From positions 9,870,394 to 9,934,393 of the forward strand of contig CM038470.1 of assembly GCA_021464415.1 (NCBI GenBank): a stretch of DNA of 64,000 nt. The letters run 5' to 3'. Origin of the DNA: Lonicera japonica. Its lineage: Eukaryota > Streptophyta > Magnoliopsida > Dipsacales > Caprifoliaceae. The notes beneath the pieces are model-generated. The model had not been told where the DNA came from. It made no database searches and saw only the letters and a program-made list of their open reading frames with translations. The stretch's first letter is position 1. The number at the start of each line of letters is the position of its first letter. The translations under genes were made by a program, and so were the position numbers. Of the stretch, positions 7,545 to 32,840 are shown one piece after another.

Positions 7545-7669
7545 GTTGAAAATTTTATGTCATGGATAGAAGAGGCATCCGATTTTTTGTTGCATCTCAC
7601 ATGGATGTAAAATACACGGAAATGTAAAAATTGTAAATTACCTAATTATGAAGTCATCCAAACATGCAC

Positions 7670-11910: not shown

Positions 11911-12209
11911 ACACATAAATATACATTGTATATCGGCAAATTTAGTGTAATTCTAGCACGCACTAACATCACCAACCCGTATACAATCACCAACCCGTGT
12001 ACAATTATTGGTTAACCAGTGTACAATTAACTCATCATTGAATTATTATCAATTTAAAAATAAACTCAATTTGCAATAAATAAACAGAGCTTCACTTTTA
12101 CATGTACAAACAACCAATTTCCAATACACTGTCCCGTGCAACATAGCTTCACTACTATTGACTCCAATACAAGAGCTTCACTACAACTGACTCCAATACA
12201 ATAAACAGA

Positions 12210-12890: not shown

Positions 12891-12900
12891 ATATATATAT

Positions 12901-13331
12901 GTGTTCGTATATAATCTAAACAAAATAATAAAAAAATGAAAATTTAAAGTGCAATGAAAGTGATGATGGGTAACCTTTAGGAAGTATGACTTCTTTTCAA
13001 TGTAGTGGAGGAAAACAATGTTGGTCATCCGGAACACTTCAAAACGCATAAAAGGGAAAAATTGCGAAAATAAATTTTGAAAGGAAAAGCCATAGTATAT
13101 TGAAGAGAAGTTAAAAGAAAATAGTATATGTAAGAAGAGAGATCATCAATCTTTTGCAACAAGGTAGGAACAAAGAAAGTTTGGGATGCAATTATCTTAC
13201 TAAAACTAATAAAAATGGAGTCCCTTATTACCAAATAAATGCCACATGTCATCTTCATATCAACTAAGCATTTATATCCCATTTATTTAGATTAAGCATT
13301 TAAATCCCACTAGCATTATATCATATATCAT
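12901..13331. other. Intergenic, no gene recognised
   Basis: AT-rich. The open frames here show no recognisable protein sequence. Confidence 0.4.
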
Positions 13332-14135
13332 ATCTAATCTATCTAATCTAATAGTATATGTATAAAATAGGAGGAGTGAGAATGTTTTGTTGTGAGAATG
13401 CTACATGGCACTTATTAATACAAGAATTAATTAGTTATCTTTTTTTTTTTTTGCCTTTTTCTCTTTATTTTTTTTTCTAAACAAATTTTGTTAATCTCCT
13501 CAATTATTAATAAAGAAAAATATGTGTTCTCTTTATTAATCTTAACTTACATACCTCAATAATTTACAAATTGGTCTTTGTCTTTTCTACTTTGATTATA
13601 ATTTATTTTTACTATTATATTATAGATCAATTTGAATTTGATTTTGTATTTAAAAATAAGACAATGTAAAATTTTTAATTCATTTATAGAATTATAGTTG
13701 ACAATTCTTTTTTGTGAGAAGTATTTGTTATGAGATTACCACATGGCAGTCATTAATGCATGAATTAATTAGCTACATTGTTAATCTCCTTTTTCTTTTC
13801 TTTTTTCCTTTTTCTCTTTGTTTTTTCCTTTCTAAAAAAACTATGTTAATCTCCTCAATTATTAATAAAAAGAAATATTTGTTTTCTTTATTAATCTAAA
13901 CTTACGCACCATAAGAATTTACAAATTGGTCTTTATCTTTTATACTTTGATTATAATTTATTTTTATTATTATATTATAAATTAATTTGAATTTCATTTC
14001 GACTTTATAAATAAGACAGTGTAAAATTTCTAATTCATTTGAATAATTATAATTGACAATTTTTTTTTGTAATAATTTTTGGCGCAGACACAACTTTTAT
14101 AAAAGTGCCCGTGCATAGCACGGGTTATAATCTAG
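13332..14135 (+). mobile_element. Non-autonomous Helitron with internal tandem duplication
   Basis: The 3' end is textbook: a hairpin with 7-bp arms (CCCGTGC ATA GCACGGG, 14108-14124), a short spacer, then CTAG (14132-14135) followed by a T. The 5' end is less certain; a TC-start at about 13332-13340 (TCTAATCTATC...) followed by GTGAGAATG...ACATGGCA fits. Internally a segment of about 350 bp is present twice, at about 13380-13700 and 13730-14065 (both contain ACAAATTGGTCTTT, TTGATTATAATTTATTTTTA and AGTTGACAATT or ATTGACAATT). It has no coding capacity, so it would depend on a helicase supplied elsewhere. Confidence 0.75.
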
Positions 14136-14490
14136 TTATTAAATAATTATTGAACAAATGATATCAAGGAGAGGTAATGAATAGGTTGATGAAGAATTTA
14201 ATATGAGAATGGTGGAGGGAGATGATTTGGTTTAAGACTATTGAATTTTTTTTTTAAATAAATTGTATTTTTGTAAGACAAAGGGAAATCAAAATTATGG
14301 AACTAATATATATATATATATAAATGAAAAAAAAATCCGGTCCAAAAAGGTAAATGGAACTATACATTATAAATATAATTTAAGAAGGAGATATTAGCTT
14401 TTTTTAGTTTGCAAAATGAACTAATTATGTTGTAGAGAAATAAAAAAGAAATGAACATGATCAAAAGGAGTTGAAGATTATATATATATA

Positions 14491-14878
14491 GGGAGCATTT
14501 CAGGTGCGGATTACTGTTCACGGACCATCCGTACGGATTAGTCCGTTTGGCACGCTTTCCGATGGAATGTTTTGATGAAATTTGGTGGGGATGTTCTTCA
14601 ATGTGTGTACAACATCTCCACCAAATTTCATCAAAAAATTCAACCGGAAAGTGGGTTAACTATACGATTGAAAAATATTGGATTTTATATATCTATTTCT
14701 GGACCAATAATTTTCAATCGTATAGTTAACCCACTTCCCGGTTGAATTTTTTGATGAAATTTGGTGGAGATATTCTACACACATTGAAGAACATATTTCA
14801 TCAAAAAATTATAGTGTGCCAAACGGACCAATCCGTACGGATGGTCCGTGAACAGTAATCCGCACCTGAAATGGTCCC
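14491..14878. mobile_element. Palindromic foldback MITE
   Basis: 388 bp that reads almost as one inverted repeat. The ends are GGGAGCATTTCAGGTGCGG and its complement (last bases GGTCCC), the arms share CGGACCATCCGTACGGAT, and the inner arms share GGGTTAACTATACGATTGAAAA. Each arm contains a smaller hairpin of its own (GATGAAATTTGGTGG facing CCACCAAATTTCATC at 14574-14632). It sits in (TA)n, which hides the target duplication. Non-coding. Confidence 0.85.
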
Positions 14879-15325
14879 TATATATATATTACATTTTATA
14901 ATTCAAATGACCGGTTAGAATACAGATTTTGCATATGCATATATAATAGGAAAATTTATACCTTGGTTAAAATTAAGAGATACATTATAACTTTATATTT
15001 AAACAAAAGAACAAAAAACACATAATTAATGGGGAATAATAATTTAATGGTTGATTAATTGTATATGTGCAGGTAAGAGAGAGGAATCAATTGAAAATTT
15101 TTAAATTTTAGAATTTCTTGCGAAACGTAAACATTTATGGTATATTGGTTAATATTTCTTGGATATAAATATTTAATTAGGTGGATCAAATAATTTATAT
15201 ATCTTTGAGATATTATTCAATGTGTTTCAAATTAGTATTTCAATTATTTTTTAAATATCTCAAAATAATAGTCTTATTTATATTATTAAAGATATTATTT
15301 TAATCTATTTCTTGGGTAATCATTT
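14879..15325. other. Intergenic, no gene recognised
   Basis: AT-rich, with no coding similarity. The last bases (GTAATCATTT, 15316-15325) form the left copy of the SINE target duplication. Confidence 0.4.
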
Positions 15326-15434
15326 TTTTTTAAGCAATCGGGCCTGGAAGGATTTGAACACCGATTTTGCAGCTAAATAGATCGTCACTCACAAAAACCT
15401 AGTAAATCACTAAGCTAACCCTGTAGAGTGATAA
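15326..15434 (-). mobile_element. Very short tRNA-derived SINE
   Basis: On the minus strand it has an A-box-like TTAGCTTAGTG near its start and a B-box-like GGTGTTCAAATCC about 60 nt later, the split RNA polymerase III promoter of tRNA genes. It ends in a short A-run (T-run at about 15322-15332 on the + strand). GTAATCATTT is present on both sides (15316-15325 and 15435-15444), a good target-site duplication. At about 109 bp it is near the lower size limit for plant SINEs. No cloverleaf can be drawn with confidence, so it is not called a tRNA gene. Confidence 0.65.
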
Positions 15435-15444
15435 GTAATCATTT

Positions 15445-16309
15445 CAAAAATAGGAAGATAAATAAAGGGTGTTCTTAAATGCACCCACAAAATTAGTCTT
15501 CTCACCCCAGTGTGAGAATACTTTCTTCTCACCCCATTAAATCTTTAAAAAATCTTACACTTTATCCCAACAGTGGGGTGAGTTTATTGAAATAATATAG
15601 GGATGATAAAATTTCGTCGCTAAAAGTAAAAATATTAAATAATATTAAATTTTTCATTAACTTAAAACATAATAATAAAATCTACATCGTTCTTAATAAA
15701 TTTTATTAAAAATTTCATCTAAATAGTACCTCCAAGATACAAAATATTAATTTTCATAAATAAGTTTTAGTAATTATATGATATTTTATATAATCTTTTC
15801 TTAAATGTTTATTATTCATATTTCAAATTTATTTACAAATTTTATTTTTATCTTTATCAAATAAGTAAATATAATACTTAATTCACTACTTCAAAAATAT
15901 TAAAAGATCAATTTGTTGTTTGAAAATATATGTTATCTTTTGTGAAAATGGAAAAAATTAATTAGAAAAATAAAATAGTTTTCATAAAAATAAATCATTT
16001 ATTAACATATTTTGTTACTTTCGATTTCTATGATATTTAATTTTTCGGAGATTCAAGAAAACGATTTCTTTACAAAATATTAAAATAAAAGAGATTTTCT
16101 CACCAAACTATTTCCTTTTTCAATATTTTTTTACGATTAATTTTAAGAAATTAAATATTGAAATAATGGAATAGAGCAATTGTAAAGAGCCATTCCATAT
16201 AAGGAATTATATATGGAATAGAGCAAAGAAGGAACTATAGAATAGATGTGGGGAATTAAAAACAGTGCATTCTCATTGATGTAACCAACTTTATATATAT
16301 TATATGATA
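15445..16309. other. Intergenic, no gene recognised
   Basis: Strongly AT-rich. Around 15490-15580 GGGGTGAGAAG-like words occur in both orientations and could fold, but I see no element boundary. Confidence 0.4.
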
Positions 16310-16459
16310 TGAAAGGGTTTTCTCACATTTCCAATTAATCAAACGTTATGTTGCAATTACATGGTCTCAACTTCAGATAAATAAAAGGGTTCTTCATTAA
16401 TTTATTGAGGAAGCAAAAGCCCTAAAACACTAAACTTTGATTAATGTCTGTAGATAGAT

Positions 16460-16873
16460 TTACCATAAAAAGTTATACCAATGTGTGTGCTTGGAGTGAT
16501 CCCTTTTTCCGTGATGGCCATGATGCTTTTTGTCATGATCATGATGGTTGTGATGCTTTTTATCATGGCCGTGGTGGCCATTATGCTTTTTGCGGTTATC
16601 GTGGTCATGACCATTGTGATGATGATCATGCGACTTTTTCGGTGCATGGGCATAGAAACCGTCTGGTGCATGGGCTTCGTTAGTTTTCTTAGAATGATGG
16701 ACATGGGGCGTTTCCGGTGCACGGGCATGGTTCAATTTTGAATGATGGTCATATGGATGGATTCGGTCGTGATGAGGTTTATTTGAAGGATCATCTTGAT
16801 GCGGTTCAGTGTGCCCATTTATAGTAACAAAAATTATACATGTGAACAAAAGTAACACAAATTTAGTCGCCAT
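16460..16873 (-). CDS. Secreted histidine-rich protein (intact copy, HRP1)
   Basis: Single exon, 137 aa. Residues 1-20 (MATKFVLLLFTCIIFVTING) form a clear signal peptide with a hydrophobic core. The rest is a low-complexity polar chain with 35 histidines in the whole protein (about a quarter). It starts with spaced His/Pro/Asp segments (HARAPETPHVHH, HAPDGFYAHAPKK) and passes at about residue 80 into repeats of the type GHDKKHH / HHDHDKKHH. It ends in a short hydrophobic tail, HWYNFLW. The only cysteine is in the signal peptide. Alternating His and Asp suggests binding of Zn, Cu or Ni in the secretory pathway or cell wall, but that is inference; I recognise no named family. Two broken paralogues lie at 18.5-19.3 and 27.8-29.0 kb. 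Intactness against decayed copies suggests this one has been kept. The opposite strand also has open frames, which are mirror images of the repeats. Confidence 0.75.
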   Translation of the reverse strand: MATKFVLLLFTCIIFVTINGHTEPHQDDPSNKPHHDRIHPYDHHSKLNHARAPETPHVHHSKKTNEAHAPDGFYAHAPKKSHDHHHNGHDHDNRKKHNGHHGHDKKHHNHHDHDKKHHGHHGKRDHSKHTHWYNFLW

Positions 16874-16957
16874 TGTAAATAAGTTAAAAAGGAAAAAGAA
16901 GTAAAAAGAGAAATGAAGAGATGTGTGTACGTTAACAGATGAAATGAGTTGGATATA

Positions 16958-16970
16958 TGTATATAAATTT
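16958..16970 (-). promoter_or_regulatory. TATA box of the histidine-rich gene
   Basis: On the minus strand AAATTTATATACAT lies about 90 bp before the start codon. The transcript would then start near 16930 and have a pyrimidine-rich leader (CTCTTTTTACTTCTTTTTCC) before the ATG. Confidence 0.5.
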
Positions 16971-17805
16971 GATGATCAAATTTTAATAAATCCCAAGTAT
17001 GCATGTTTGAGTTATTAAGAGGGCATTTATTAGAAATGAATTTTAAGCAAGTTATGTTAAGAATGGATTTAATTCGGCACTTTGACTCTAAATGGTATTA
17101 AGACTCTTTTTTCATTTCCTTAGGTGTGGTAAAAAAATTCATATGTAGGAATAAATTTTGGATTCAAAACAAAAATATATTATAACTCATAATTTTGTTA
17201 AATTGAGTATATTTTTCGTTTTTATTTTCAGTCACTTTTTTTTGTCCACTTCACTTTTTCCTTTACTAATTTGTAATACCATTTTACGTTATAATTGCTT
17301 TAATAAATATTTTCCTGTAATATTGAAGTTAATTAATGTGTGTCCTTCACTGAGATGTGAGAAGGGCTATTCATTGGGCTTCAATTCGGGGTTCCAATGT
17401 AACCAGGGCCTAGACTTTTTCTCAAAGGGTAATAATTTTTTCCGAGTAAGAAAAAATAACTGAAAATCAAAGATAAATATTGTGCTAAAAATAAAAAAAT
17501 TACATTGATGTAAGTCCCACCACGGCAGACACATAAATATATATTGTGAACCCTATTATCAAAGCAAATATTGTTTTGACAAAGCAACATATTGTTGTAA
17601 AAAATATTGCATTGCTTTTGCGAGTTAGGTCATATTTGCTTCAATTGGTGTATCCATATCGTTGACATAGTAATCTTGGGCCAATGATGATAAATATTGG
17701 GTGTTTAAGAAGGTGCAGGTGAACGACTCGAACAGTTACCCTCTTTCAACTTTCAAGACACTATAACCATTTGGGATCTTTAATATTAATTATATAGCAA
17801 TTTCT

Positions 17806-17840
<35 letters not shown>

Positions 17841-18526
17841 AGATTAATGAATAATCATGAAAATAATAGGTTTACTGATAAGTTTTAAGTCGGTCCTATG
17901 TTTATTAGCTAAGATAAAATTAACTTCAATAGAAATAAATAGTGTGATTTATTTTGGTCCAAGCTAACAACAGTCTTTCGGGATACAAAATATAAATTCG
18001 ATCATGATTCTCTAATAGGAAATGTTCTACTTGTATTCTTGCCTCTTTTTTATTTTTATGTTGAATTTAGTGTTTTTAAAAAATGTACGAAACTCAAAAT
18101 TTGACTGTTACGTACGTACTTTGAGACCGGAAGTATCTGCTACTTACATTGCAAGTGAATGAAATGCCCTATTTGGCAACATAGATATTCCTATTTGAAC
18201 ACCCCACAAATATCCTAAAAGGGTTGAAGTGAACAAGCACAAAATGCAAAATCATATTAGTTATTTTTGCTAAGATGTGCTAAAATTATTAAATCTTAAA
18301 AAGCGTACTTATGTAGTTATGTACTTGGATCTTGAATAACATTATTGAAAATACTTAGAAGAAGGGTTTTTTTCAACATTAATTAAATCCATCGTAATAG
18401 CTAATTAACAACACTCATATTTTTAACTAATTTCAAAGGTTACTTTGCCAATTACATGATCTCAACTTTAAATAATAAAAAAGCTCTCCATTAATTTATT
18501 GAAGAAAGAAAACCCCAAAACACTAG

Positions 18527-19322
18527 CTATGTGCTAATTAATGTCATTAGACAAGTTGACCATAATAAGTTATATGTGTTCTTGGAGTACGTGATTTTAT
18601 TTTCATTTTTATCATGATGCCCATGCTGCTTTTTGTCATGACCGTGATGGCCATGATGCTTTTTATCATGACCAGGATGGCCATGATGCTTTTTGTCATC
18701 ATCATCGTCATGGCTATGGTGATTATGGTCATGCAACTTTTTCGGTGCATAGGCATAGAAACTTTCTGGTGCACGAGCGCCATGAGCCTTTTTTGGAGGG
18801 TGAGGCTATTGCCACACCCCATATGTCTCTGTAACACTCCCTATATTTGATTCGGTATATTTGGACCGAGTATATGATCATTTACTCGGTGTAATGGAGC
18901 AGAATTATTGTTAAAAATAAAAAAAATACATTGACTCGGCCCAATAGCACCGAATAATGTGCACATATTCGGCCCTATTGCAACGAATCAATGTGCACAT
19001 GCTCGGTCCTATTGCACCAAATTAAAGCAGGAGTGTTACGGAGAGATATGGTGGGTGGCAATAGCCCCACCCTTTTTGGATGATGGATACAGGTCACTTT
19101 CAGTGCATGGGCATCATCAATTTTCTTAGGATGATGTACATGGCGCATTTCCGGTGCATGGGCATGACCCAATTTTGAACGATGGCGATGGGACAGTAGA
19201 TGGATCCGGTCGTGACGAGTTAGGTTTCTTTAAAGGGTCATCTTAATGCGGTTTAGCATGTGCATTTAAAGTAAAAAAAATATACATGCCAACAAAAGTA
19301 ACACAAATTTAGCCTTCCATTG
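18527..19322 (-). pseudogene. Histidine-rich protein pseudogene (HRP2) split by a MITE
   Basis: Paralogue of HRP1. Its 3' part (18527-18797) still reads FYAYAPKKLHDHNHHSHDD then DKKHHGHPGHDKKHHGHHGH, with the HRP1 stop lost so that the frame runs on about 12 codons. The 5' part (19081-19322) begins ATGGAAGGCTAAATTTG where HRP1 has ATGGCGACTAAATTTG; one extra base shifts the frame at codon 2. A CAA codon seen in HRP1 (PHQDD) has become TAA. Between the parts sits a 275-bp MITE. Three independent lesions make it a pseudogene. Confidence 0.85.
18798..19072. mobile_element. hAT-like MITE inside HRP2
   Basis: 275 bp with terminal inverted repeats of about 42 bp (GGCTATTGCCAC ... GTAACACTCC and its complement). 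It is flanked by an exact 8-bp target duplication, TTTTTGGA, at 18790-18797 and 19073-19080. An 8-bp duplication is the mark of hAT transposition. Removing one flank and the element re-joins the HRP2 reading frame as ...HHPKKAHGARAPES, matching the HRP1 pattern. The interior holds CTCGG(C/T)CC(A/T)AT(T/A)GCACC-like words several times. Confidence 0.85.
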
Positions 19323-19570
19323 TAGATAAGTGAAAAAGTAGAAAGATGTAAAAGGAGAAATTAAGAGGTGTGTGTTAAGAGATGAAATTGGGTAATTTTA
19401 AAAAATTCCAAACTTCCATGTATGTTTGAGCTATTAAAGAGGGGATTCATTGGACATGAATGTTAAGCAAGATATGTTAAGAATGGATTTAATTTGGCAC
19501 TTTGAATCGAAATAGTATTAAGATTCCTTCTTCATTTCATATATATTAGGTGTGTTAAAAAAAAGAATAA

Positions 19571-19907
19571 TCATACATAGGGATATATTTGGATTTAAAT
19601 ATATATATATATACATATGCTATAACTCATAATACCATTTCATGTTATAATTGTTTTAATAAATATTTTCTTGTATTGTAAAATTGAAGTTAAATTAATG
19701 GGTATATATTGCCCCAAACTATAAATCAGATTCACTAGACGAGAAACTCAATTCCACACTGCTACCGAATCACCAGACTTATCCACCAAGGGATTCGTGG
19801 AATTTTTGTGGATTGCGCTGGGGAAATCCACCAAAACTAGGCAGAAAGATAAACTCCTTTTTCGCTGCTAAGGGAGAGCAATAACCAACGCGCCTGCGCC
19901 ATTTTGG
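19571..19907. other. Non-coding, part of unit C
   Basis: The start contains a TATATATATA tract and TTATAATTG...TTTTAATAAATATTTTC, which matches 17285-17315 in unit B. No gene. Confidence 0.45.
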
Positions 19908-20962
19908 GTATATATGCAAATGCTAGCTAAGTGTCCTCTCACTACCAACCAGTAGGCATCTGTTGCTGGGTCTTGCACACTGAGAAGGGCTATTCATTGA
20001 GTCTAATTCGGGGTTCCATAGTAAGCATGACAAATTTTTTTTAGGGGCAATTAAAAAAAAGGGCTTATTAGAGAAAGATTTTCACACTAAGGCCAAGGAA
20101 TAATTTTTTTTTAAATAAGAGCAGGCCGTATTTTTTATTAGTTATTGATACATATGACATGTGTATTTTTGGTTTAGCTCAAGCTTCCGAGATCACAAAT
20201 GACATCCACAAAGCTGCTTCTTCAGCTTCAAACCCACCACCAATAAACTAAAAAAGATACCAATTGCATTAACACCCGAAATAGTTATTATTCAGGCTGA
20301 ACTTTTGCACTATCAATTTCACTGCAATATGAACTTTGCCTCAGTACCACACTTTCTTGTTATCTGCATGATAATGGAACTTTAGCAGTACGGTTATGTT
20401 TTTCTATGTGAAAACCCAATCCATTGAAAAGAGTTGGATTTCATAGGTTATTTTTTTGTAGGGAAAAGTTTTTTGTAGAAAACAAAATCTTAAGTCGGAT
20501 TTTACTGCAATTACTTATAACTTAAGCTGCCATGGTGTACCATGGAAATAAATTTTTGGAAAATTATGCAATCAATCACAACTAAAGATGGAAATGACGA
20601 AACTTCAAGTGACAAAACTTCAAGCATTGTCCATGGGATACGTATGCGGTATGCCTAGAGAATTTAGGGTTTCAATTATACCCTATCGGCCTATCCCAAG
20701 AAGCTCAGCAGTCAGCACATTTCCCGCCATGACTTCTTTATCCACCGGAATGAGAATAACTCTATCATGGAATTTTTACATTAAGCCCCCTTGGATCTAT
20801 AATCCTGGATCCGCCACTGATTTTGTGTATATATGCAAATGCTAGCTAAGTGTCCTCTCACTACCAACCAGTAGACATCTGTTGCTGGGTCTTGCACACT
20901 GAGAAGGGCTATTCATTGAGTCTAATTCGGGGTTCCATACTAAGCAGGACAAATTTTTTTTA
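19908..20962 (+). repeat. 135-bp direct repeats flanking an inserted segment
   Basis: 19908-20042 and 20828-20962 are nearly identical (GTATATATGCAAATGCTAGC ... GGGGTTCCATA(G/C)TAAGCA(T/G)GACAAATTTTTTTT). The inner part also matches 17360-17400 of unit B, so this sequence belongs to the duplicated unit and was itself doubled around the insert. It lacks TG...CA ends, so LTRs are unlikely. Confidence 0.7.
20043..20827 (-). mobile_element. Insert related to the 31.9-32.6 kb foldback element
   Basis: The first 120 bp (GGGCAATTAAAAAAAAGGGC, TTATTAGAGAAA, ATTTTCACACTAA, GACATGTGTATTTT) match the reverse complement of the right end of the 31,934-32,585 element. ACTGCAATATGAACTTTGC at about 20323 is the unit of that element's internal minisatellite. 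The right boundary is unclear; GGATCCGCCACTG at about 20808 looks like a hAT-type end. It has no coding capacity. Confidence 0.5.
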
Positions 20963-21399
20963 TTTTTTTTCAGGAAAGCCATTATTTTAATATTTTTTTT
21001 AAACGTTAATTATTTTTTCGATGGTGCAAAAATAAATGAAAAATAATAAAAAAAAATATTATGCTAAATAAGTGTAGCATTGTTAACATTTAAATACGAT
21101 AACACATATATATATATTTGTATATCTCATATAGACCAGAACCTTTAGTGACAGTTTTTCATTACTAAAACATTGAAGAAATATTTTTAGGGATGAAAAA
21201 TCATCTCTAAAGATTCAGTTCGTATGAAATTTTTTTGCGTACATATATTTTGGTCTTCCATGAATTATCCCTACATCACATTGAATGTAAAACTAATCAT
21301 TGTTGACCAAATTGAACTTGTGTTGTCTGCGAGCAAATTTGCACCTATAGAAAGTCAAACACAAAATATCTCACTAAAATGCTAAAATACTAAACCATG
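20963..21399. other. Non-coding, part of unit C
   Basis: TTATTTTTTCGATGGTGCAAAAATA at about 21010 matches 30915-30950 in unit D, so this is duplicated-unit sequence. No gene seen. Confidence 0.45.
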
Positions 21400-21987
21400 G
21401 GTTAATTTTTGTTAGATGGAGTTTTCCGGCTAAAGGGAGATTCAAGCTTAATTCTGATGGGTATTGCAAAAGAAATCCAGGCATAGGAGGTGGTGGCAGT
21501 ATACTTCGAGATGAAGGTGGTAATATTGTTTTTGCTCAAACTGACTTTTATAGAGAAACCACGAACACCATTGCTGAAGCTCAAACTCTGTTGCAAGGTA
21601 TGTTCCTTCCTGTGGATAGAGGCATATTCAATGTCGATATAGAGGTTGATTCGTTGCTGTTGGTTAATGTTTTACAAAATAAAGTTGCTGTCCTTTGGAG
21701 TATCGCTTATGAAATTCACAATATCAGAATCATGTTGCAGCGTGTTGACACTTTTCTCCAGCACACCTTCCACGAAGTAAATCGTGCAGCTGATTTTCTT
21801 GCAAAGTTAAGAGTTCAAAGAAAGCAGCATTTTATTTTCAATAGAGATAATATCCCAAAAAAACTTATGGGAATTACTAGAATGGATAGAGCTGGGCTGT
21901 ATCATTTGAGAATTCGTAAGTTTTAATTTTTTTGTTTGATCTAATATATTTTTAGGGGCTCTGCCTCCTTTGCCAAAAAAAAAAATG
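21400..21987 (+). mobile_element. 3' end of a LINE (RNase H domain and poly-A)
   Basis: A continuous frame reads FKLNSDGYCKRNPGIGGGGS, ILRDEGGNIVFAQ, AEAQTLLQG, VDIEVDSLLLVNVLQ and TFHEVNRAADFLAKL, the plant LINE RNase H (RVT_3) from its first Asp to its last. The sequence ends in GCTCTGCCTCCTTTGCC and an 11-A tail at about 21977, the usual end of plant L1-type LINEs. Everything upstream of RNase H is missing, as in 5'-truncated insertions. The domain frame itself is open for about 170 codons. Confidence 0.8.
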
Positions 21988-22447
21988 AATCAACCCAACA
22001 AAACCCAGTGGTAGACGAACTTTCACAATTGCTGGGTCGTCATGTATTTGCCATCTCAATTGGTGCGTACCCATATTTTTGACATTGCTATCCTTGGGCC
22101 ACTGGGCCAGCTCGTTTGGGTCTTGAGCAGCTCAGGGATAACAAAGTGGGCTCTAATCTCAAAATATATGCATGGGCATGGCAGTGGCAGTGGCTGAGTT
22201 ATTGCCCACTCATATATATTACTCCCCCGTTCCAATTTTTTTTTTTTTGAAAACAGAAAATAGAATATATTAATTCAAATCACGAAGCAGAACATCGGTA
22301 ATGAAGTGGGGAGACACACCCTCCCACACTAACTGACCAGACACAGAAGATGATTCTCTCGCTAAGCAATGAGCAACCGAGTTCGCTGACCGAAAAATAA
22401 AAACAACCTGACATTGATCTAAGCTCCCCAGAAGAGTCTTACAATCG

Positions 22448-22750
22448 TCAATAATTACCCCCCAAGTACGAACTATCCCTCTCGAAACTATTTAACGCAT
22501 TCACAACTAGTTGCGAATCAGTTTCGAAAATGCAATTACACATGTTACGGCTCTTGATCCAGCTGAGAACTTCATAGAGACCAATAGCCTCTGCTAGAAC
22601 TGGAGTGAAACGGCCATCCTGAGAACCTTGAAGTGCTGCCACAAATGTTCCTTCATTATCGCGGACAACTGCACCATAACCCATTTTTAACTGCTCCTGA
22701 AAATTGCAGCGTCAATGCTCACTTTAAGAAAACCAGCATTAGGACGCTGC
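22448..22750 (-). pseudogene. LINE RNase H domain
   Basis: Reads FLKVSIDAAIF, then, after a one-base shift near 22687, MGYGAVVRDNEGTFVAALQG, LAEAIGLYEVLSWI and CIFETDSQLVVNAL. The first Asp, the Glu and the second Asp positions of RNase H are all present. It is the C-terminal domain of the LINE at 22,239-25,618. Confidence 0.8.
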
Positions 22751-22999
22751 CACCTATTAGTTTGGCTTGGAACCTTATAAATCGGAACCGAGTCAGCTTC
22801 GTTGGGTGACTTCCATTCAGCAATACAAACTCCTGCTTTGAACAGCACTGCAGAAACTGAGTTCGATGATCCGTTCCAAATTAAATCATTCCGATTACAC
22901 CAATTACTCCAAAGAATAGCAGCACAAAAATCTGCCTCGTCATTCGATACCCTACGTCTAACTTCGTTCCACCAACACGAGAAAACACCAGCAGAGACC

Positions 23000-23511
23000 G
23001 GCAGAAAATTAAGAGATGAAGCAGCCCAAACACGTTGAACTACCGGGCAAGAAACAAGAGCATGCATTACCATTTCATTCTCACTATGGCAGAAAACACA
23101 GCGGGTATCTAGCTCTATATGACGAGCAGCTAGCGCCATTTTGGAAGGCAGGTTGTTAGATAAAGCCCTCCACATAAAATTACGGACTTTCGACGGAGTT
23201 TTTAAAGACCAGACGAAATCCCAATCCGTCACCGAGGGGGACATCAGTTGCTGCGAGTTACCAAGCAATAAATTATACCCAGATTTGACAGAATACAAGC
23301 CCTTAGGATGCCAAGCCCACCACCAACCATCCTCTCTATTGCTTCGAGGCAAAGGAACCGAAATTATCTCATTTATATCACGAGAATTAAATAGAGCAAT
23401 AACTAAATCAACATCCCATTCTAGTTTACCCGGTAACATTAAACCGTCCACTGTAGCTTCAGCAATTTCTTCTATAATTGGCGATTGAATACAAGGTTGT
23501 TCCTTATCCAT
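23000..23511 (-). pseudogene. LINE region with zf-RVT zinc finger
   Basis: Reads DGWWWAWHPKGLYSVKSGY, WRALSNNLPSKMALAARHI and CVFCHSENEMVMHALVSCP, the zinc-binding zf-RVT domain (C-x2-C...H-x4-C) that follows reverse transcriptase in plant LINEs. Its frame differs from that of the upstream RT. Confidence 0.85.
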
Positions 23512-23779
23512 GAGCCACGGAGAACCCCAGATTTTCGAGTTAACACCATTCCCGATACGACGATGCGCGCCAGCTTTAATAAGGTCTTGCGAGGACAGAA
23601 TGCTCCTTCAAACGAAGCTCGGATTACTACCCAATTTAGCATCAATGAATGACGAGTCAGAAAAATATCTAGCTTTAAAGATTTTGCTGCACAGGGAACC
23701 CGAATTGGATAAAAGACGCCAAGCTTGCTTGGCAAGCATAGCCGTGTTAAACTGACGAATACTACGAAATCCCAAGCCT

Positions 23780-24896
23780 CCTTAAGTTTTTTTGAAACAG
23801 AGCTTATCCCAAGATTGCCACCTCAACTGATTACCTCCGTCTTTCTTTCTACCCCACCAGAAATTGTTCATCATTTTCTCCAGATCATCACACAAGCGAA
23901 GAGGGAGCAAAAAAGCACTTGAAATGTAGCTAGGGATGGCCTGGATGACAGACTTTAAGAGGATCTCTTTCCCCGCTCTAGATAAATTCTTTAATCTCCA
24001 ACCATTCAACTTCTTCCACGCCCTTTCTTTAATATACGAGAAAACCGCGACTTTATTTTTGCCAATAAGAAAGGGAGCACCAAGATACTTGCCATGATTG
24101 GAACAAATTTGACCTCAACAAACTACATATTTCTCCTCTCACGTCATCAGGAGTATTAGCGCTAAAAAGAATGGAAGACTTAGCAAAGTTCACCAATTGT
24201 CCTGAAGCCAACTCATAAGAAAGCAGGCAATTTTTAATCGAAATACTTTCCTCCACCGTAGCTTTGAAAAAAAGAAAGCAGTCATCAGCGAAAAAAAGAT
24301 GCGAGATAACCGGAGCTGATCTCGCAACACGGCACCCATGGACTAGACCTCGACGGCACCGATCATAAATGATAGATGAAAGACCCTCAGCACAGATAAG
24401 GAAAAGATAGCGAGAGATATGATCCCCCTGTCGGAGACCCCAAGAAGGAATAATAGGGCCCATATCTCGACCATCCTGGCGAATAACATATTTAACTGTT
24501 TTAACGAAAAGCATAACCAGACCAATCCAAGCCTCTGCAAACCCCAAAGCTCTCATCATTTCTTCCAAAAAGATCCATTCAACCCGATCGTACGCCTTAG
24601 ACATATCAATCTTCAGCGAAGAAAACCCGGACTTGCCCCTGCGTTCTCCTGTTCAAATAATGGCTAACTTCGAAAGCAATCATCACATTATCGGTAATGA
24701 GTCGACCAGGAATAAACGCACTCTGAGATTTAGATATTACTGAATCCAAAACCAACTTTAATCGATTAGGAACCATTTTCGTCATGATTTTAACAATGAC
24801 ATTACATAGAGAGATAGGCCTCAAATCAGATAACTTATCAGGGCTCTTAATTTTTGGAAGAAGCACAATAATCGTCTCATTAATATCGTCAGGCAA
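23780..24896 (-). pseudogene. LINE reverse transcriptase
   Basis: Reads INETIIVLLPKIKSPDKLSD, LRPISLCNVIVKIMTKMVPN and SAFIPGRLITDNVMIAFEV. After a frameshift at about 24605 come SKAYDRVEW, WGLRQGDHISRYLFLICAEG and FFADDCFLFFKA (the catalytic FADD), then KAGKEILLKSVIQAIPSY-like sequence. All catalytic Asp residues are present, but the frame is broken at about 24605 and 24050. Confidence 0.85.
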
Positions 24897-25129
24897 TTCA
24901 CACGAATTAAGGCATTATAAACAGAATGAAGAGACATCAGTACCTATCTTCGCCAAGAAAGATTGATAGAAACCCGGATTAAAACCATCCGGGCCTAGGC
25001 TTTTATCCGGGTGCATGGATTTGACCGCAGCTTCGACTTCCTCAGCTATGAAAGGCCGAGTCAAAGTCGCATTTTATTGAAGGGTGAGTTTCTGCCTAAC
25101 CGTACTCAAAACTTCAGCTGCATTACTAC

Positions 25130-25633
25130 CCCTACTCGAGAACAAATCCCCATAATAAACCAAGAATATACTCCTGAAGGCCTGAATCCCAACTCAATCG
25201 AACCCCATTCTCATCGATCAGACACTTGATTTCATTCTTTTTCTTACGAGCCGACGTGAAAGCATGAAAGGTTTTTGAATTCGTATCCCCCGACTTGAGC
25301 CAATTTCGATTTCTCCTGCAAAACCCTTTCCTGCGAAAACTCGTCTCTACCCCTAGAGAAATAATTGATCCGATTTCTGCAATGGTTGACTTCAGATCTG
25401 AACTGTTGTCGAAGAGAGTCGCCCCAAACTTGGAGCGCTTGTCTGCAATTAGATAGTCGGTCCCAAAAATCCATGGGACAATTTTTACCCCAACTCGCAG
25501 ACACAATTTCGGAGCAATTTTTATCAAACCTCCAAGCGTTCTCAAAGCGAAAAACCCTTCTCCTCGGAACAGAGGATGAGGAAAAATGAAGAAAAAACGC
25601 AGAGTGATCCGAGGATAGACTCCCCCGTTCCAA
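25130..25633 (-). pseudogene. LINE endonuclease C-terminal fragment
   Basis: Starts SLSSDHSAFFLHF, containing the SDH catalytic motif of apurinic-type endonucleases, then RRVFRFENAWRFD and CFCRRNRNWLKSGDTNSKTF-like sequence linking to the RT. A frameshift near 25300 divides it. The upstream two thirds of the domain is absent because the insertion is truncated. Confidence 0.75.
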
Positions 25634-25919
25634 TTTAATTGTCCAACTTTGAAAAAATAAATATTAAGGAGACATAATGATTATTCTAAGAGAAAATATT
25701 TATTTCCAAAAATGACCTTTACTTTTCTCCTAATAAAAAAAGGTTGCGGGACCCACAATAAAGAAAGTGGTGATATTTTAAAGGGTAATATTAGAAATAA
25801 CAAAAAGTACTCTAATTAATGACTTGCTAAATATAGAAAGTAGACAATTATTTTGAGACATCCAAAAATGGAATAGTGGACAATTAAATTGGGACGGAGG
25901 GAGTAGCAAATTTTATGCA

Positions 25920-26345
25920 ATTTTTGTTAGATTATTGAATAATCTTAAAATTTATTATGGTTACTGATAAGTTTTCAATTCGGTCCGGCATCTATTAGCT
26001 AAGAAAAAAAATTATTTCAACCTAAACAAATATTGTGATTTTTTGAATATTTATGAATTAAGGAGTGATGAGTGAATATCTTAACTAAAATACCAAAAAC
26101 ATATTTATTTTGGTCTAAGTGTACAACAATCTTTGAGACTACAAAATATAACTTCATTCATGATTCTCTAATAGGAAATTTTCTATTTGTATGCTTGTAT
26201 GTTTTTATGTTGAATTTAGTGTTTTTTAAAAAGTTATGAAACTCAAAATTTAACGATTAATTTGAGATTAATGGAGTATGAGTTATTTACAAATGTATGT
26301 GAGAATGAAATGCCATGTTTGGCAACATAGATATGTTATTTTCGA
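25920..26345 (+). repeat. Duplicated unit D, first part
   Basis: GTTAGATTATTGAATAATCT, ACTGATAAGTTTT and GATTCTCTAATAGGAAA match 17850-18190 (unit C) and 31860-32840 (unit E). Later insertions follow. Confidence 0.7.
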
Positions 26346-26965
26346 AGATCCACAAGCGTAAGATTGACCAAACAATTTTGCGTATAATAATTAAAGAAAA
26401 AAGCACCACTAATATTAAAGCAAGATGAAAAACAAGAGATTAAAGAATAAAACAACTAATCAAACAAGCAAGCAATTAGGTGGTATCGGCAATACCGCCA
26501 CTAATACACCGAGTAATAGCTATTATTGATTAGACCAATTCCGAGTACAACGCGCGAAGCAAACCCTAGCTGTTAATTAGAGCTATCAATATTATCTCTC
26601 AAATATACTCTCTAATCTAGCTAATAAACAATACAATGCAACTCACAAATAAAATCTATAACAATAGTTCTATTTATAGGGTATAAATCCTATGAATTTA
26701 TGATTGCACAAAGTCAAAACCTACTAGAAATTGAATAATAAAAATCCAACTAGGATTTGGACAATACAAAGTCAATTATGAATTGGACAATATAAAACCA
26801 AATAGGAATATGATTTATATACAAAGCCAAATCTTCAATTTAGTGAAATAGTGTAAACCGATGGAACATTGGCTTTGAGTTAATGTAAATACAACAGTTC
26901 TGTGAGACTCAGCGTTTAGGGGATGATTGAGATGTGTTGTTCGGTCAAGTGACATGTTTGTAATT
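26346..26965. other. Inserted non-coding DNA, possible LTR remnant
   Basis: This stretch interrupts unit D and has no counterpart in units A or C. CTATTTATAGGGTATAAATCC at about 26672 resembles the TATA region of a Copia LTR read on the minus strand, but neither boundary nor a second copy is visible. Confidence 0.35.
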
Positions 26966-27268
26966 GTAACGACTCGGTCCCACCTCAGTACGATATTGTC
27001 CGCTTTGGGTAGCGTCCAGCCAGGCCTCAGCCCCGAAACATCTACTTTCACAGCTTTGTTTGGGATTGCTCTGGTCCTCTACTCGCTTAACTTCAGAGTT
27101 CTTATGGGATCCGAAGCCAATAAGCCCCCAAAATGCCTCGTACTTAATTGGCAACCATATCTTACTTATATGGGTCTCTAAGGATCCCACATCTTCCCAT
27201 GTGGGATGCCCCCTTTGAGCTACAATTCATCCTCCCAAGGGAATACTCCTCGCTCGCAGGGCATCACA
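26966..27268 (-). mobile_element. Cassandra-type TRIM solo LTR with 5S rRNA-like core
   Basis: On the minus strand it starts TGTGATGCCCTGCGAGCGAG and ends GAGTCGTTACA, 303 bp with TG...CA ends. At 27078-27107 the minus strand reads CGGATCCCATAAGAACTCTG then AAGTTAAGCG, closely matching the plant 5S rRNA segment just before and into its internal A box. Carrying 5S rRNA in the LTR is the defining feature of Cassandra TRIM elements. Flanks GTAAT (26961-26965) and ATAAT (27269-27273) fit a 5-bp target duplication with one change. No second LTR is nearby, so it is a solo LTR. Confidence 0.8.
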
Positions 27269-27274
27269 ATAATA

Positions 27275-27560
27275 TTGGTGTCGATCAGCTAAAAAGGTTC
27301 AAAACTCTTGCAATTCTTATTGCGGTAAATGAAACTATTTCTCGGGTTAGGATAAAGTCAAATTTGAGACTCTCCCATAAGGTTATAAATACTATTAACT
27401 ATGGGAGTTTATGAATGAAGTGGGCTCTATTGTGGAGGATATTATAAGGAAAAGTGGAGGTAGTGATTTTATTTTTCTCTTTATCCATATGAATGGTAAT
27501 AAAGTGGCTCATGAGTTGGTTCACCATGCTTTATGAATTCACGCAATGGAAATCAAAAAT
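27275..27560 (+). mobile_element. LINE RNase H tail remnant
   Basis: Short broken translation reminiscent of the end of plant LINE RNase H: LFIHMNGNKVAHELVHHAL at about 27480-27535 corresponds to the conserved FxHVxRxxNxxAHxLA end. Upstream codons are frameshifted. The Cassandra LTR lies directly 5' of it. Confidence 0.5.
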
Positions 27561-27589
27561 TCCTAACTTGTTTCCAGAATGGTTGACAT

Positions 27590-27834
27590 TCTCAACTTTA
27601 AATGATATTTTGTAATTGTGTTTGTTCGCTACAAAAATGTGATAGCTAATTAACAAAACTGATATTTCCAATTAACTTCAAATGTTACATTTCCAATTAC
27701 ATGATCTCAACTTTAAATAACAAAAGGGTTCTCCATTAATTTATTGAAGAAGCCAAAGCCCTAAAACACTAAGCTACATGCTTAATGTTATTAAACAAAT
27801 TTAGCATAAATAGTTATACCAATGTGTATACTCA
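27590..27834 (-). repeat. Duplicated unit D, downstream flank of HRP3
   Basis: TTTCCAATTACATGATCTCA, AAAGGGTTCTCCATTAATTT, ATTGAAGAAGCCAAAGCCCT and AGTTATACCAATGTGT match the regions just downstream of HRP1 (16340-16490) and HRP2 (18410-18570). Confidence 0.75.
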
Positions 27835-29017
27835 GGCAGTGGCGGAGTCGAGAAATATGGTTAATGGGGTCATTAAATTATGCATCAAAATATGATTAGT
27901 GGGATTATTAAATAATGTATCGCCAAATCTCCCACTAATTATTAAATTATCAATCGAAAATAATGAGAATGAGCAATGGTACTTGGCCCAAAAAAACACA
28001 ATCCAATAATTAGTATAAATGAATCTCATATCACTCATAACTGTCATGTAGGCATTGATATTAAAGTGTATATTTATGGTCAAAATGCATTTAAGATACA
28101 ATTTAAAAAAAATGGCTGAATAGCATTTGTTATGGAAAACATTTTTGAGCCACACTTTTCATATATATATATATATATATATTTTAATTTGACTCCACTA
28201 CTAATTACTTTTTAAATTTTAAGTGGTGTCAATTGTATACACCAATATAAATCTATCTAAAATTTACCTTATTTAATTGTTTATTCTAAATTTTAGGTGA
28301 GGTCATTGGACCCTATATTCTTGCACATGGACACACCTCTGTGCTCGGGGTGATCCTTCTTTCCATGATGGCAATGATGTTATTTTTCATGACCACGATG
28401 GCCATGATTCTTTTTGTGGTTATTGTCATGGCCATAGTGTTGATAATCATCTGACTTTTTCAGTGTATCGGTATAAAAACTATATGGTGCATAGGCACCT
28501 TAAGCCTTGCCATGACCACGATGGCCATGATGTTTTTTGTGGTCATCGTCATGGCCATGGTGTTGATGGTCATGCAACTTTTCCGGTGTATCAGTATATA
28601 AATTGTCTGGTGCATGGGCACCTTGAGTCTTGTCATGATCATGATGGCTATAATGCTTTTTTTTGTGAGCACGATGGCCATGATGATTTTTATGGTCATC
28701 ATTATGGCTATGGTGACGATGGTCATGTGACTTTTTCGACGCATCGACACCTTGAGGCTTTTTCAGATGATGGGCATGGGACAATTCTGGTGCACATGTA
28801 TTATTAGTTTTTTTTAGGATGATGGACATCGGGTGTTTCAGGTACATGGGCATAAACTAATTGGTCCAATTTTGAATTATCGTGAAGGGGCATCGAATGG
28901 ACTCGGCCGTGATAAGGTTTCTTTGAAGAGTCATTTTGATGTGATTCAACCCATACACTTGTGGTGATCAACAAAAGTTATACATGTCAGTAAAAGCGAC
29001 ACAATTTTGATAGCCAT
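27780..29017 (-). pseudogene. Histidine-rich protein pseudogene (HRP3), expanded and split
   Basis: The start codon at about 29017 and MAIKIVSLLLTCITF resemble the HRP1 signal peptide; then a frameshift, ESHQNDSSKKPYHGRVH, and PETPDVHHPKK followed by a stop. The His-rich part (28853-28500) is open in another frame and carries an extra internal duplication: SHDHRHHSHNDDHKNHHGH is repeated as LHDHQHHGHDDDHKKHHGHR. Two more in-frame stops follow before 28330. The final 3' tail (about 27780-27834) is separated by an inserted element of about 500 bp. It cannot make an HRP-like protein, although the middle 117-codon frame is long enough to be mistaken for a gene. Confidence 0.8.
27835..28337. mobile_element. 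hAT-like element inside HRP3
   Basis: It separates the HRP3 tail from its body exactly where HRP1 reads GTGTGTGCTTGGAGTGATCC. The left end CAGTGGCGGAGTC is a common plant hAT terminus; the right end reads CAGAGGTGTGTCC on the minus strand, a degenerate partner. The flanks TACTCAGG and TGCTCGGG look like a diverged 8-bp duplication. Non-coding and AT-rich. Confidence 0.55.
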
Positions 29018-29227
29018 TGTGAACAAATGGGAAAGTAGGAAAGAAGTTAAAGAGAAATGAAGAGATGTGTGTTAAGGGATGAAATGGAGCAGTTATATAT
29101 AGATTTAATTATCAATATGTAATAAAATTCTAAGAACATTTGAGCTATTAAGTGGCTTGCATTCAGCACACATGAATACGTTTTTAATAAAATCCAAGAA
29201 ATTTTTAGACACAAAGAGGCTGATTAA
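29018..29227 (-). repeat. Duplicated unit D, upstream flank of HRP3
   Basis: AGAGAAATGAAGAGATGTGTG and GATGAAATGGAG, followed by TTGAGCTATTAAG, correspond to the HRP1 leader and promoter region (16905-17030). The homologous continuation resumes near 30030 after MITE insertions. Confidence 0.6.
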
Positions 29228-30002
29228 AGCATTTCCAATGTAATAACTAAAATTAAATAATCAAAATGACTAATCACAAATTTGTAAGGTCCATTACATA
29301 TATATATTGATTGGCAAAAAATTTATCGATTTGAATTTTGTTTTAAAAAAAAGATTGTTATGGAGATTATCTAAATTTGAAAAGATTTTATTTTAGTAAT
29401 AGAATTAGTGGGTCATTCATTTTAGTTATTGAAGAAGGTTGTTAACTTTGATTATAAAAGGTCTAAATTTAGTTATTAGTTAAAAGGTTGCTAAAATTTA
29501 ATTATGCTGTTGGGGTGGTATTTTTAGCCAACAATTATTAAAATTGATTATAATTATTATTTTAATTATACCATTGGAGATGGGTGGTGTTATTTACACC
29601 CCCACTTCTGTCACAAATATCACCCTTGTCACAAACACCTTCCAAATGTAAATTTTCAATCACTAATACCCTCTAAAATTCGGCTAATGAGAGGTAAGTG
29701 CAAATGAACACACTTACCCCACTTGGGGAGAGTATGTTTATAATAACTCGCCTAATATCAGACAATGGATTATTGAAGTGTTTTTTAAATAAGGCTCACC
29801 TAATGAGAGGTGAGTACACATATATAAACTCGACTTACATGAGAAAAGTGTGTTGCTAAGCACTCACCTAATATCAAACAATGGACGAGAGTATTTGTGA
29901 CAAATAAAATAGTGTTAAAATGTGTTTTTAATTAAATTTTAAAAAAAGTTATTTGTGACAGATTTAAGGGTATAAATAACACCACCCTTAAAGATACTCT
30001 TA
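29228..30002. mobile_element. MITE interrupted by a second MITE
   Basis: The left end GCATTTCCAATG and the right-end sequence CATTGGAGAT are inverted. The right tip (AGATACTCTTACT) is displaced by another element at 29582-29987. Neither part has coding sequence. Confidence 0.5.
29582..29987. mobile_element. MITE with 20-bp TIRs (nested)
   Basis: Starts GGGTGGTGTTATTTACACCC and ends with its complement (GGGTATAAATAACACCACCC, one mismatch), 406 bp. The inside shows diverged copies of CACCTAAT(G/A)...AGGTGAGT. It sits in the end of another MITE. I could not settle the target duplication. Confidence 0.7.
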
Positions 30003-31086
30003 CTCATGAATGTTAACATTTAGGAAAATGACTATTGGAGTTTAAAAGCACGCAAGTCATGTTAAGAGTGTATCAATTCAGCACTTTGACTCTAAAAAGT
30101 TTTTTTTTAACTCTTTTTTATTTCATATATAAGAATAAATTATATTAAGCAGGGCCTACAATTATATTTTATCATATAACTAATATTAATAATGCTAGAA
30201 TTTCAGAGTTTTTTTAGCACATGTCTTCTCGCTTTACTTTCTCTCTCCTCATTTTTTCTGTTTATAATATATAAAAAAGTAATAGTATCTACACATAACT
30301 ATATATCCTCACTTGTCTATTTAAAAAATAAAATACGTAATACTATATATATACTCAATTATTTACATACATATATACAAAAATTAATTTCAGTACTTTG
30401 ACGAATAAAAATGTAAACTTAGGGAAAATTTTAATATAACTATTATTGATAAGTACGTTTCAATCGGGGGAAATTACTAACTTTGCTAGAAATTTGTTGT
30501 TAGAGTCATAAACTTTAATTGCATGTTTACATAAATAATATATCTTAACCATTAGAAAAATAAAGATTTTTGAAAAGAATAAATAATTTTGAATTTTTTT
30601 GGCTAAAGTGGAGTTTAAAAAATTATATTGAAAATGGTTTAATTCTGCAGTCTATACTCGGCATAGGCTATTGGTGATACGAAACTAATTGGTAACTTCT
30701 CATATGTCTAGGTAGATTACAATTTTATCTGGAAATATACTTGGTACGAAAAAATTTTGTTTTTGTTATGGCAAAATAAAGCAATAAAACAATGAAAACT
30801 TATACAGTATAATATATGTTTTACAATTTAATATATATTTGTATATTAATTATAAAGCACTTGCACATCGCATTTTGCAAAACTAGTTTTTTTTTTAAAA
30901 AAAAAAGAAAATAAATATTTTTTTGATGATGCAAAATAATAGAAAAATGTTGAGCTGAAAATAAATAGAGTGTGCCATTGTTAAAACATCGTACCCATAT
31001 TTTGGACATTGTAATTCTCTGGGCATGATACCACTGCTGCTTTTTAGTTAATTACGTGGGCTTGAGATTTGAACGGTTACCCGTCT
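30003..31086. other. Non-coding, part of unit D
   Basis: TCAGCACTTTGACTCTAAA at about 30076 matches 17075-17095, and the stretch 30900-31080 (GCCATTGTTAAAACATCGTA, GGGCTTGAGATTTGAACGG) matches units B and C. In between is AT-rich sequence with no recognisable gene. Confidence 0.5.
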
Positions 31087-31580
31087 TAAAGTATTTTCAA
31101 TGATAAATGTGTAAATTAAATATGTAAAAATATATGGATCAATAAAAAATAGATATTTGGAGGATTAAAAATTAATTTTACACAAATATTTTACACATTC
31201 TTATTTGTGCTCTAATGGTACACTTTAAGATTATTGTGTAAAATTTGAATAAACCAATAACATTGCAATATTTTTTATTTATAAATTAACAGTGAAAATG
31301 GGTGTTCTTTTAAAGCTTTTGATGAGTAGAATTCAAATAAACAAATATCATATCATAATAAAATTATATTTTGATTTTTACTTATATTATTTTTAATATT
31401 TTGTAAAAAGTTGGAGAGAGAAAGTGATGTAGATGTATAAAATAGACACCCATTTTACACAAGTAATGATGTGGCATTTTTTACATAACACTATTGGAGC
31501 ACCAAAAATTATACACATTATATAAATTTTACACAAATCCTTTGTGTCATAGTTTACACATACCCATTAGAGATGCTCTT
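31087..31580. mobile_element. MITE, family also at 53.7 kb
   Basis: Ends: AATGATAAATGTGTAAATT and, read inward from the right, AGAGCATCTCTAATGGGTA then TGTGTAAA. The whole element is the reverse complement of 53,700-54,222 (shared words include CATTTGGAGG/CCTCCAAATG and CCATTTTACACAAGT/ACTTGTGTAAAATGG). Non-coding. Confidence 0.7.
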
Positions 31581-31933
31581 ACTTGACTAGCTCTTGGCCA
31601 CCCGTGGGCTGGGCTCGTCTGGGTCTTGAGCATCTTGGGGATAACAATGTGGGTGTATAGCTACTCTAAGCCCAATATATATATATACACTTGTATAACT
31701 TTTTATACAAGTGACCAATTTCTTTCTTTTCTATACAACCAAAGTTCAATACCGAATTCATGTGGGTCGAATCCATAACTCCATTATTACGAGGATACTG
31801 ATGATACCAAGTAGGAAACAATGGATATAGTAATTTGCCCACTCATATATATTAGTAAATTCTATGGTATTTTTGGTTAGATTATTGAATAATCTTAAAA
31901 TTAATTAGGGTTATAGAGAAGTTTTTAATTCAA
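31581..31933 (+). repeat. End of unit D and start of unit E
   Basis: GGGTCTTGAGCATCTTGGGG, GATAACAA and TGCCCACTCATATATATTA match 22100-22222 of unit C; then GTTAGATTATTGAATAATCT starts the next unit, as at 25925. This junction shows head-to-tail arrangement of units D and E. Confidence 0.65.
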
Positions 31934-32585
31934 CTAGAAATTAGGTAGAATGTCTTACTACACATTATTTTTTACCAAAACTCCAATGAATAATATTTTT
32001 TTGAATGAAGGGCCTATTTTTAATTGGTAATTAGTGTGAGAGGCCTATTTTATTTTATATTTTAAATGAAGGTATTTGAATAAATTTAAATATCATTTAA
32101 TTAATAAAAGCATATTATATATTACCTAAATTACCCCCTCTTTATGAAATTTGCACAAAAAATATGAATATTGCAGTGAAATATGGACTACAATATGAAC
32201 TTTGTACTAGAAATATGGACTGCAAAGTTCACATTGCAGTAAAATATGGACTGCAATATGAACTTTGCACCAAAAATATGGACTGCAAAGTTCATATTGC
32301 AGTAAAATATGGATTGCAAAGTTCATATTGCAGTAAAATATGAATTGCAAAGTTCATATTGCAGTGAAATATAGACTGTAAAGTTCATATTGCAATCCAT
32401 ATTTTAATGCATATTGGTATTTTTTTAGTTTATTTTAAGGGTTGGGATGTCATTTTATAATGAAAAAAAAAACACATGTCATATTATTAATAAAATAAAA
32501 AATAGGCCCTTTATTTACAAAAAAATTATTCATTGGCTTTAGTGTGAAAATTTTTCTCTAATAAGACCTTTTTTTTAATTGTCCC
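31934..32585. mobile_element. Foldback element with a minisatellite core, inside unit E
   Basis: Flanked by an exact 9-bp duplication, TTAATTCAA (31925-31933 and 32586-32594). Inner inverted repeats read CCAATGAATAAT and GGGCCTATTTTT near both sides (31990-32035; 32500-32555 reversed). The centre is the minisatellite at about 32160-32405. Related sequence occurs at 20,043-20,450. No coding sequence. Confidence 0.7.
32160..32405. repeat. Minisatellite with units in both orientations
   Basis: About seven copies of a roughly 31-bp unit (ATATGGACTGCAAAGTTCAT then ATTGCAGTAAA). Some copies carry GCAAAGTTCATATTGCA and others its reverse complement TGCAATATGAACTTTGC, so neighbouring units can pair. 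Confidence 0.8.
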
Positions 32586-32594
32586 TTAATTCAA

Positions 32595-32840
32595 TCTGAT
32601 GTCTACTAACTTACTCAAAATTAACTTCAATATAAATATATATTGTGATTTTTTTGAAAATTTATGAGATAAAGAGTGACGAGTAAAGGTTTTAACTAAA
32701 GTACTAGACAGTTAAGACAGATATATCAAAATTATCTAACAAAATTATTTTGGTCTAAATGTACTCTTTGATCGAGACTACCAAATATAACCTTGTTCAT
32801 GATTTTTTAATGGGAAATATTCTACTTGGAAAAAATAAGA
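32595..32840 (+). repeat. Duplicated unit E, last recognisable part
   Basis: TTATTTTGGTCTAA, TTCATGATT and TGGGAAATATTCTACTTGG match 26110-26190 and 17950-18030. Similarity then ends; no histidine-rich gene follows. Confidence 0.65.

Follow-up and report, generated by a model that had tools for sequence, protein, structure and literature searches.

Probable tandem duplication of a 2.1 kb unit carrying a histidine-rich gene, with later inflation of the array by transposons

The locus analyzed here raises the question of whether several similar segments around a small gene for a histidine-rich protein arose by local tandem duplication or belong to a dispersed transposon. The window, a stretch of 64,000 nucleotides, resembles plant nuclear DNA, with many mobile elements and, among the recognizable genes, PsbP (an exon at 44.9 kb and, judged by eye, the first one at 43.4 kb); Pfam matches also revealed genes of the F-box type (61.7 kb) and of the WDR26-like WD40 type (48-52 kb). 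Immediately left of the array, the ORF at 2887-3420 has a Pfam match to DDE_Tnp_4 and is presumably of the PIF/Harbinger type, and the neighboring ORF at 1280-1756 has no Pfam match. A first-pass annotation of the sequence had described at least five copies of one segment with a common order of blocks, and had suggested tandem duplication followed by heavy transposon invasion.

The self-comparison and the pairwise block comparison recommended there, made by BLAST (the pairwise one at low stringency, with E-values from 8e-4 for short pieces to 1.8e-105), confirmed five segments, A to E, near the coordinates first given, and a block order common to all of them, with all used matches on the plus strand (Table 1). 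The blocks are named, in order, a1, a2, b, c0, gene, c2, d, e, and f, where c0 is the 3' flank of the gene and c2 is its upstream, 5' flank. Blocks d and e were not recovered in segment D by pairwise BLAST. The weakest block is f, with local scores of 51.5 for B-C (shuffled maximum 26.0), 67.5 for C-D (27.0), and 32.5 for B-D (24.0). Comparison of the sequence preceding B with blocks a and b gave scores of 29.0 (shuffled mean 28.7), 35.0 (mean 29.0, maximum 42.5), and 24.0 (mean 26.2). By hand-set intervals, unit sequence accounts for ~6,241 of the 29,053 array bases.

Table 1. Coordinates of the array segments, gene copies, and insertions in the window
Feature	Position	Strand	Description
Segment A, matches	3776-3934 and 7715-7941	+	self- and pairwise BLAST
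Segment A, part 1	3776..3944 (right bound approximate)	+	block a2 from the left edge of the array (TTGGATTCTTG); 79.5% to D 26187-26346, 78.2% to C 18055-18183
LINE-like insertion in A	3945..7690 (bounds approximate)	+	separates a2 from b, which are contiguous in C
Segment A, part 2	7690..7941	+	block b and first ~65 bp of c0; 73.1% to C 18239-18475, 80.5% to D 27642-27720, 75.0% to B 16319-16384
A-to-B interval	7942..16318		8.4 kb without recognized unit sequence; MULE-type element, tandem duplicate, foldback element, further DNA
MULE-type element between A and B	8747-12900		~0.63 kb terminal inverted repeats, 92.8% identical
Tandem duplicate between A and B	13376-14070		self-comparison
Foldback element between A and B	14480-14889		self-comparison
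Segment B	16319..17835	+	blocks c0, gene, c2, d, e, f; in-order matches to C and D
Intact gene, copy B	16460..16873	-	ORF of 137 aa, 35 His
Segment C	17836..22221	+	blocks a1 to f, several insertions; pairwise BLAST
Dead gene, copy C	18560..19322	-	stop at fourth codon after ATG, frameshift, further stops, hAT-like MITE
MITE in gene copy C	18798..19072		inverted ends GGGTGRGGCTATTGCCAC, 8 bp target repeat TTTTTGGA
Element splitting C and D	22222..25903		Stowaway-like ends CTCCCCCGTTCCAATTT and CTCCCTCCGTCCCAATTT, TA target repeat
Segment D	25904..31854	+	blocks a, b (part), c0, gene, c2, f, several insertions; pairwise BLAST
Dead gene, copy D	28340..29015	-	frameshift near start, stops, insertion, internal repeat
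Segment E	31855..32828 (matches 31855-31944 and 32586-32828)	+	block a1 and start of a2, ~0.65 kb insertion inside (31945-32585); pairwise BLAST

Reading of the junctions bore out the head-to-tail arrangement noted earlier for D and E and extended it to B/C and C/D. Segment B adjoins C directly, as D adjoins E. The C/D junction is split by an inserted element; with this element removed, it reads CATATATATTA-GCAAATT / CATATATATTA-GCAAATTTTATG, and its counterpart at D/E reads CATATATATTAGTAAATT / CATATATATTAGTAAATTCTATG. The B/C junction is of the same kind as D/E and less conserved (local score 68.0, a value without a shuffled control for that pair).

The outer edges of the array define its unit. 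The left edge of A (3776, TTGGATTCTTG) and the right edge of E (32828, CTACTTG) are one and the same unit position, with TTG common to both, and the internal copies at this position read CTACTTGTATTCTTG (C) and CTATTTGTATGCTTG (D); the join within a2 is seen in both. Homology ends sharply there: edge scores are 157 and 138 inside the array and 18 and 19 outside it, with shuffled means of ~20, and the sequence left of 3776 has no match (18.0 vs a shuffled mean of 19.8). Simple arithmetic puts at ~0.3% the chance that two truncations arising independently would coincide to ~3 bp in a unit of 2,064 bp. The coincident edges of A and E thus place the unit boundary inside a2 and mean that the array consists of complete units only, with E as the tail of the unit begun by D. 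The resulting layout is [A ... B + left of C] [C + left of D] [D + E], each unit measuring ~2.1 kb without insertions. Therefore, the count of at least five copies holds for segments, whereas the units number only three or four.

The number of units depends on the first ~65 bp of c0, which are carried by both A and B (55 of 68 positions alike, a divergence as in other pairs). The cause would be either loss of the middle from a fourth unit or formation of a local repeat where one unit was split. We give roughly even chances to an array of four units, in which a deletion between the first and second took the gene of unit 1 together with blocks a-b of unit 2, and A and B are remnants of different copies. 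The overlap has indeed diverged like separate copies, but the ends of such a deletion must by chance fall within ~65 bp of matching positions. An array of three units, in which the 8.4 kb insertion separates A and B as the two halves of unit 1 and a local repeat of 65 bp marks the split, is a serious possibility that we rate at somewhat under even. It agrees with the finding that A, B, and the left of C sum to one complete unit (2,064 bp by hand-set bounds), but it would require the 65 bp repeat to have an age close to that of the duplications themselves. The overlap is not a simple product of splitting one unit, which also counts against the tandem explanation as a whole.

Nevertheless, a ~2.1 kb stretch that was tandemly duplicated and then inflated by transposons is very probably the best explanation of the locus. 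The three like head-to-tail junctions and the outer edges that coincide in unit coordinates imply tandem duplication, and together with the order of divergences described below they support the scenario first suggested for this region. As expected of a local array, the copies are adjacent, lie on one strand, share one block order, and have like junctions. The competing explanation, in which the blocks represent a dispersed transposon, or a gene captured by one (Pack-MULE or Helitron), that inserted here several times in one orientation, appears very unlikely, even though the region is dense in mobile elements and some rolling-circle elements make head-to-tail rows. The TTGGA present at both outer edges is read here as microhomology; it could instead be a 5 bp target repeat, as a transposon would leave. 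Inverted ends were not seen at the array edges. Pfam gave no transposase or reverse transcriptase match for the one gene that the blocks contain, and three like abutting junctions are not expected from independent insertions.

Copies elsewhere would also favor a dispersed element, and 5 of 13 block queries (two of them hitting one place) do match outside the array, as against 18 of 130 shuffled queries. This excess over the shuffled rate indicates that small AT-rich pieces are shared, but the matches are just 22-36 bp long (E-values from 4.4e-5 to 0.007 within the window), and no block-length copy was found in the window outside the array. The first-pass annotation had named spread of the blocks all over the genome as the outcome that would speak against tandem duplication; the comparison covered the window, and a dispersed family in the genome is unlikely.

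From the block order, the junctions, the matching edges, the gene states, and the insertions, all of which are observed, a tandem history of the locus may be outlined as follows. It would start from a single-copy chromosome stretch of ~2.1 kb with one small gene, encoding a secreted histidine-rich and probably metal-binding protein, and its upstream region. This stretch would have been duplicated head to tail, the break presumably being joined within a2 at TTG(GA) microhomology, and the array would have grown to three or four units, most simply via unequal crossing-over. Gene copy B would have remained open while C and D decayed and the A side was left without a clear gene. Insertion of DNA transposons, MITEs, and LINEs into many spacers and two gene copies would have expanded ~6 kb of unit sequence to 29 kb.

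The divergences are consistent with this order of events. For seven pairs of copies with at least 200 aligned sites, the non-coding K2P distance is 0.222-0.299; smaller comparisons gave 0.247 for 59 sites of A-B and 0.159 for 49 sites between B and the second e block in C, and forced alignment of the poorly conserved block f gave 0.40-0.55. The poor conservation of f counts against the tandem explanation, as does the lack of a single tree for the blocks: C and D are closest in b and c0, and B and C are closest in c2 and the gene. With assumed substitution rates between 6.5e-9 and 1.5e-8 per site per year, the seven pairs would be ~7 to 23 million years old, and the terminal repeats of the MULE-type element (K2P 0.066, 623 sites) would by the same arithmetic be ~2 to 5 million years old. 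Other repeats are also less diverged than the copies, with K2P of 0.029 (the 143 bp repeat in C described below), 0.129 (13376-14070), and 0.139 (two copies of a MITE). Against this, divergence exceeds that of the array copies in the arms of two insertions, the MITE in C (66.9% alike) and the insert in E (~65%); such arms need not begin identical and were therefore not used for dating. The contrast between the copies and the MULE-type repeats, along with recognized insertions within single copies, supports duplication before insertion. The simplest, though unproven, order has the duplications first and most insertions afterwards.

The insertions are of several types. The insertion in A contains an RT-like ORF at 5495-5860, judged by eye, and the MULE-type element holds a MULE transposase domain fragment in the ORF at 10930-11286 (Pfam E 4e-11). 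The element that splits C and D carries a minus-strand LINE with RVT_1 and zf-RVT domains (Pfam; ORFs 22687-23511 and 24053-24604). The MITE in gene copy C is called hAT-like from the 8 bp length of its target repeat. Segment C also contains a 143 bp direct repeat (19901-20043 and 20820-20962, 97% identical, K2P 0.029) around a ~776 bp insertion. Related foldback-type insertions lie in opposite orientation at 20040-20340 in C and 31949-32589 in E, with ends like TTAGGGGCAATTAAAA, and the one in E holds 31 bp tandem repeats. A dispersed repeat is present at 31086-31579 in D and, in opposite orientation and ~80% identical, at 53697-54222 in the gene-rich right part of the window.

As annotated initially, the gene is open in B and dead in C and D, where three-frame reading revealed frameshifts, stops, and insertions. 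Copy D has ~0.5 kb (about 27829-28339) inserted into the end that codes for the C terminus, as well as a 123 bp (41 codon) tandem repeat of 2.2 copies at 28388-28662, and its gene frame is still open over 117 aa. The reported absence of the gene from A and E held insofar as neither has a clear remnant and no score exceeds the shuffled maximum; however, two scores for A come close to it. Region 7942-8746 of A scored 31.0 against the B gene (shuffled mean 23.6, maximum 32.5) and 40.0 against D 28950-30140 (mean 31.9, maximum 41.5), and A may thus contain a heavily decayed gene remnant. The sequence after E scored 28.0 against the B gene (shuffled mean 28.1) and 37.0 against B 17200-17800 (mean 28.2, maximum 40.0).

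The B protein contains 35 His, 15 Lys, 12 Asp, 7 Gly, and 1 Cys in 137 aa. Its N terminus is hydrophobic and, by eye, signal-peptide-like, which suggests secretion; the sole Cys lies inside that stretch. No Pfam family matched at E 0.001. In a database of 5.8 billion proteins, one homolog was found (P0001, 152 aa), 68% identical over the full length and 80% over aligned columns, by a search that reaches only relatives of similar length sharing short exact words. This protein was the sole match among 7 candidates with the B gene as query and again among 209 with a two-row alignment as query; viral contigs, considered as a source of relatives, gave 5 pattern matches, 0 of them confirmed. Compared by tblastn with the pieces of the dead genes, P0001 is 62.7% and 50.0% identical to those of C and 40-46% identical to those of D, as expected if these copies have decayed. 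It contains a 17-residue stretch that is absent from B, and this stretch and the 41-codon repeat in D are candidate changes of histidine-rich modules.

The changes specific to B hint at selection. At three-way aligned sites, they number 9, 4, and 16 at codon positions 1, 2, and 3; the corresponding counts are 13, 14, and 8 in C and 26, 26, and 22 in D. Five alignment settings, two of them with identical counts, were compared. Fisher p-values for B vs C plus D are 0.0056, 0.0282, 0.184, 0.0194, and 0.0282, and binomial p-values for B alone are 0.013, 0.068, 0.133, 0.036, and 0.068. The B changes comprise 10 synonymous and 19 non-synonymous ones (17 in one setting), with 22-27% synonymous expected without selection, and the B-C divergence of the gene (0.222) is no lower than that of non-coding blocks (0.225). 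B changes lean to third codon positions, unlike those of C and D, in an alignment-dependent manner that is suggestive only.

Judging from composition alone, a secreted, Cys-poor, and His-rich chain would be a plausible cell-wall binder of zinc, nickel, or copper. We tentatively propose, as somewhat less probable than its opposite, that the gene belongs to an uncharacterized, lineage-restricted family of secreted, disordered, His-rich metal-binding proteins, one evolving along two linked routes, the copying of entire 2.1 kb units and the gain or loss of His-rich modules in frame, with only one copy of the array under selection. Having no Pfam match and one relative found, the B gene is a reasonable candidate for a test of extracellular metal binding.

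Several known plant proteins invite comparison. Glycine- and histidine-rich proteins of actinorhizal plants are represented by those of Alnus, described as a gene family in a title (Pawlowski 1997, cited in PMC11534348), and by DgGHRP1 of Datisca (PMC3756986). Compared by description rather than by sequence, they are His-rich plant proteins like B, which has Gly at only 7 of 137 positions. Histidine-rich defensins share the His-rich character, and four of the four that were expressed bound metal, which makes them a precedent among His-rich plant proteins (PMC7557933). Defensins have eight conserved cysteines (PMC7557933), and the B protein, with one Cys in 137 aa, was rejected as a plant defensin. 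Neither the locus nor the gene is named in the parts of PMC7557933, PMC3756986, and PMC11534348 consulted.

The array itself provides a readable example of a small plant gene array that appears to have begun at a microhomology break and decayed to one open copy. Transposons have inflated it about fivefold with the original edges intact, and existing views are not overturned. Tandemly arrayed plant genes evolve by birth and death, and the present locus resembles such arrays in its head-to-tail copies, one open gene, pseudogene copies, and transposon-filled spacers. There is no difference in kind: we regard the array as ordinary gene birth and death in which both original break points can still be read despite heavy insertion.
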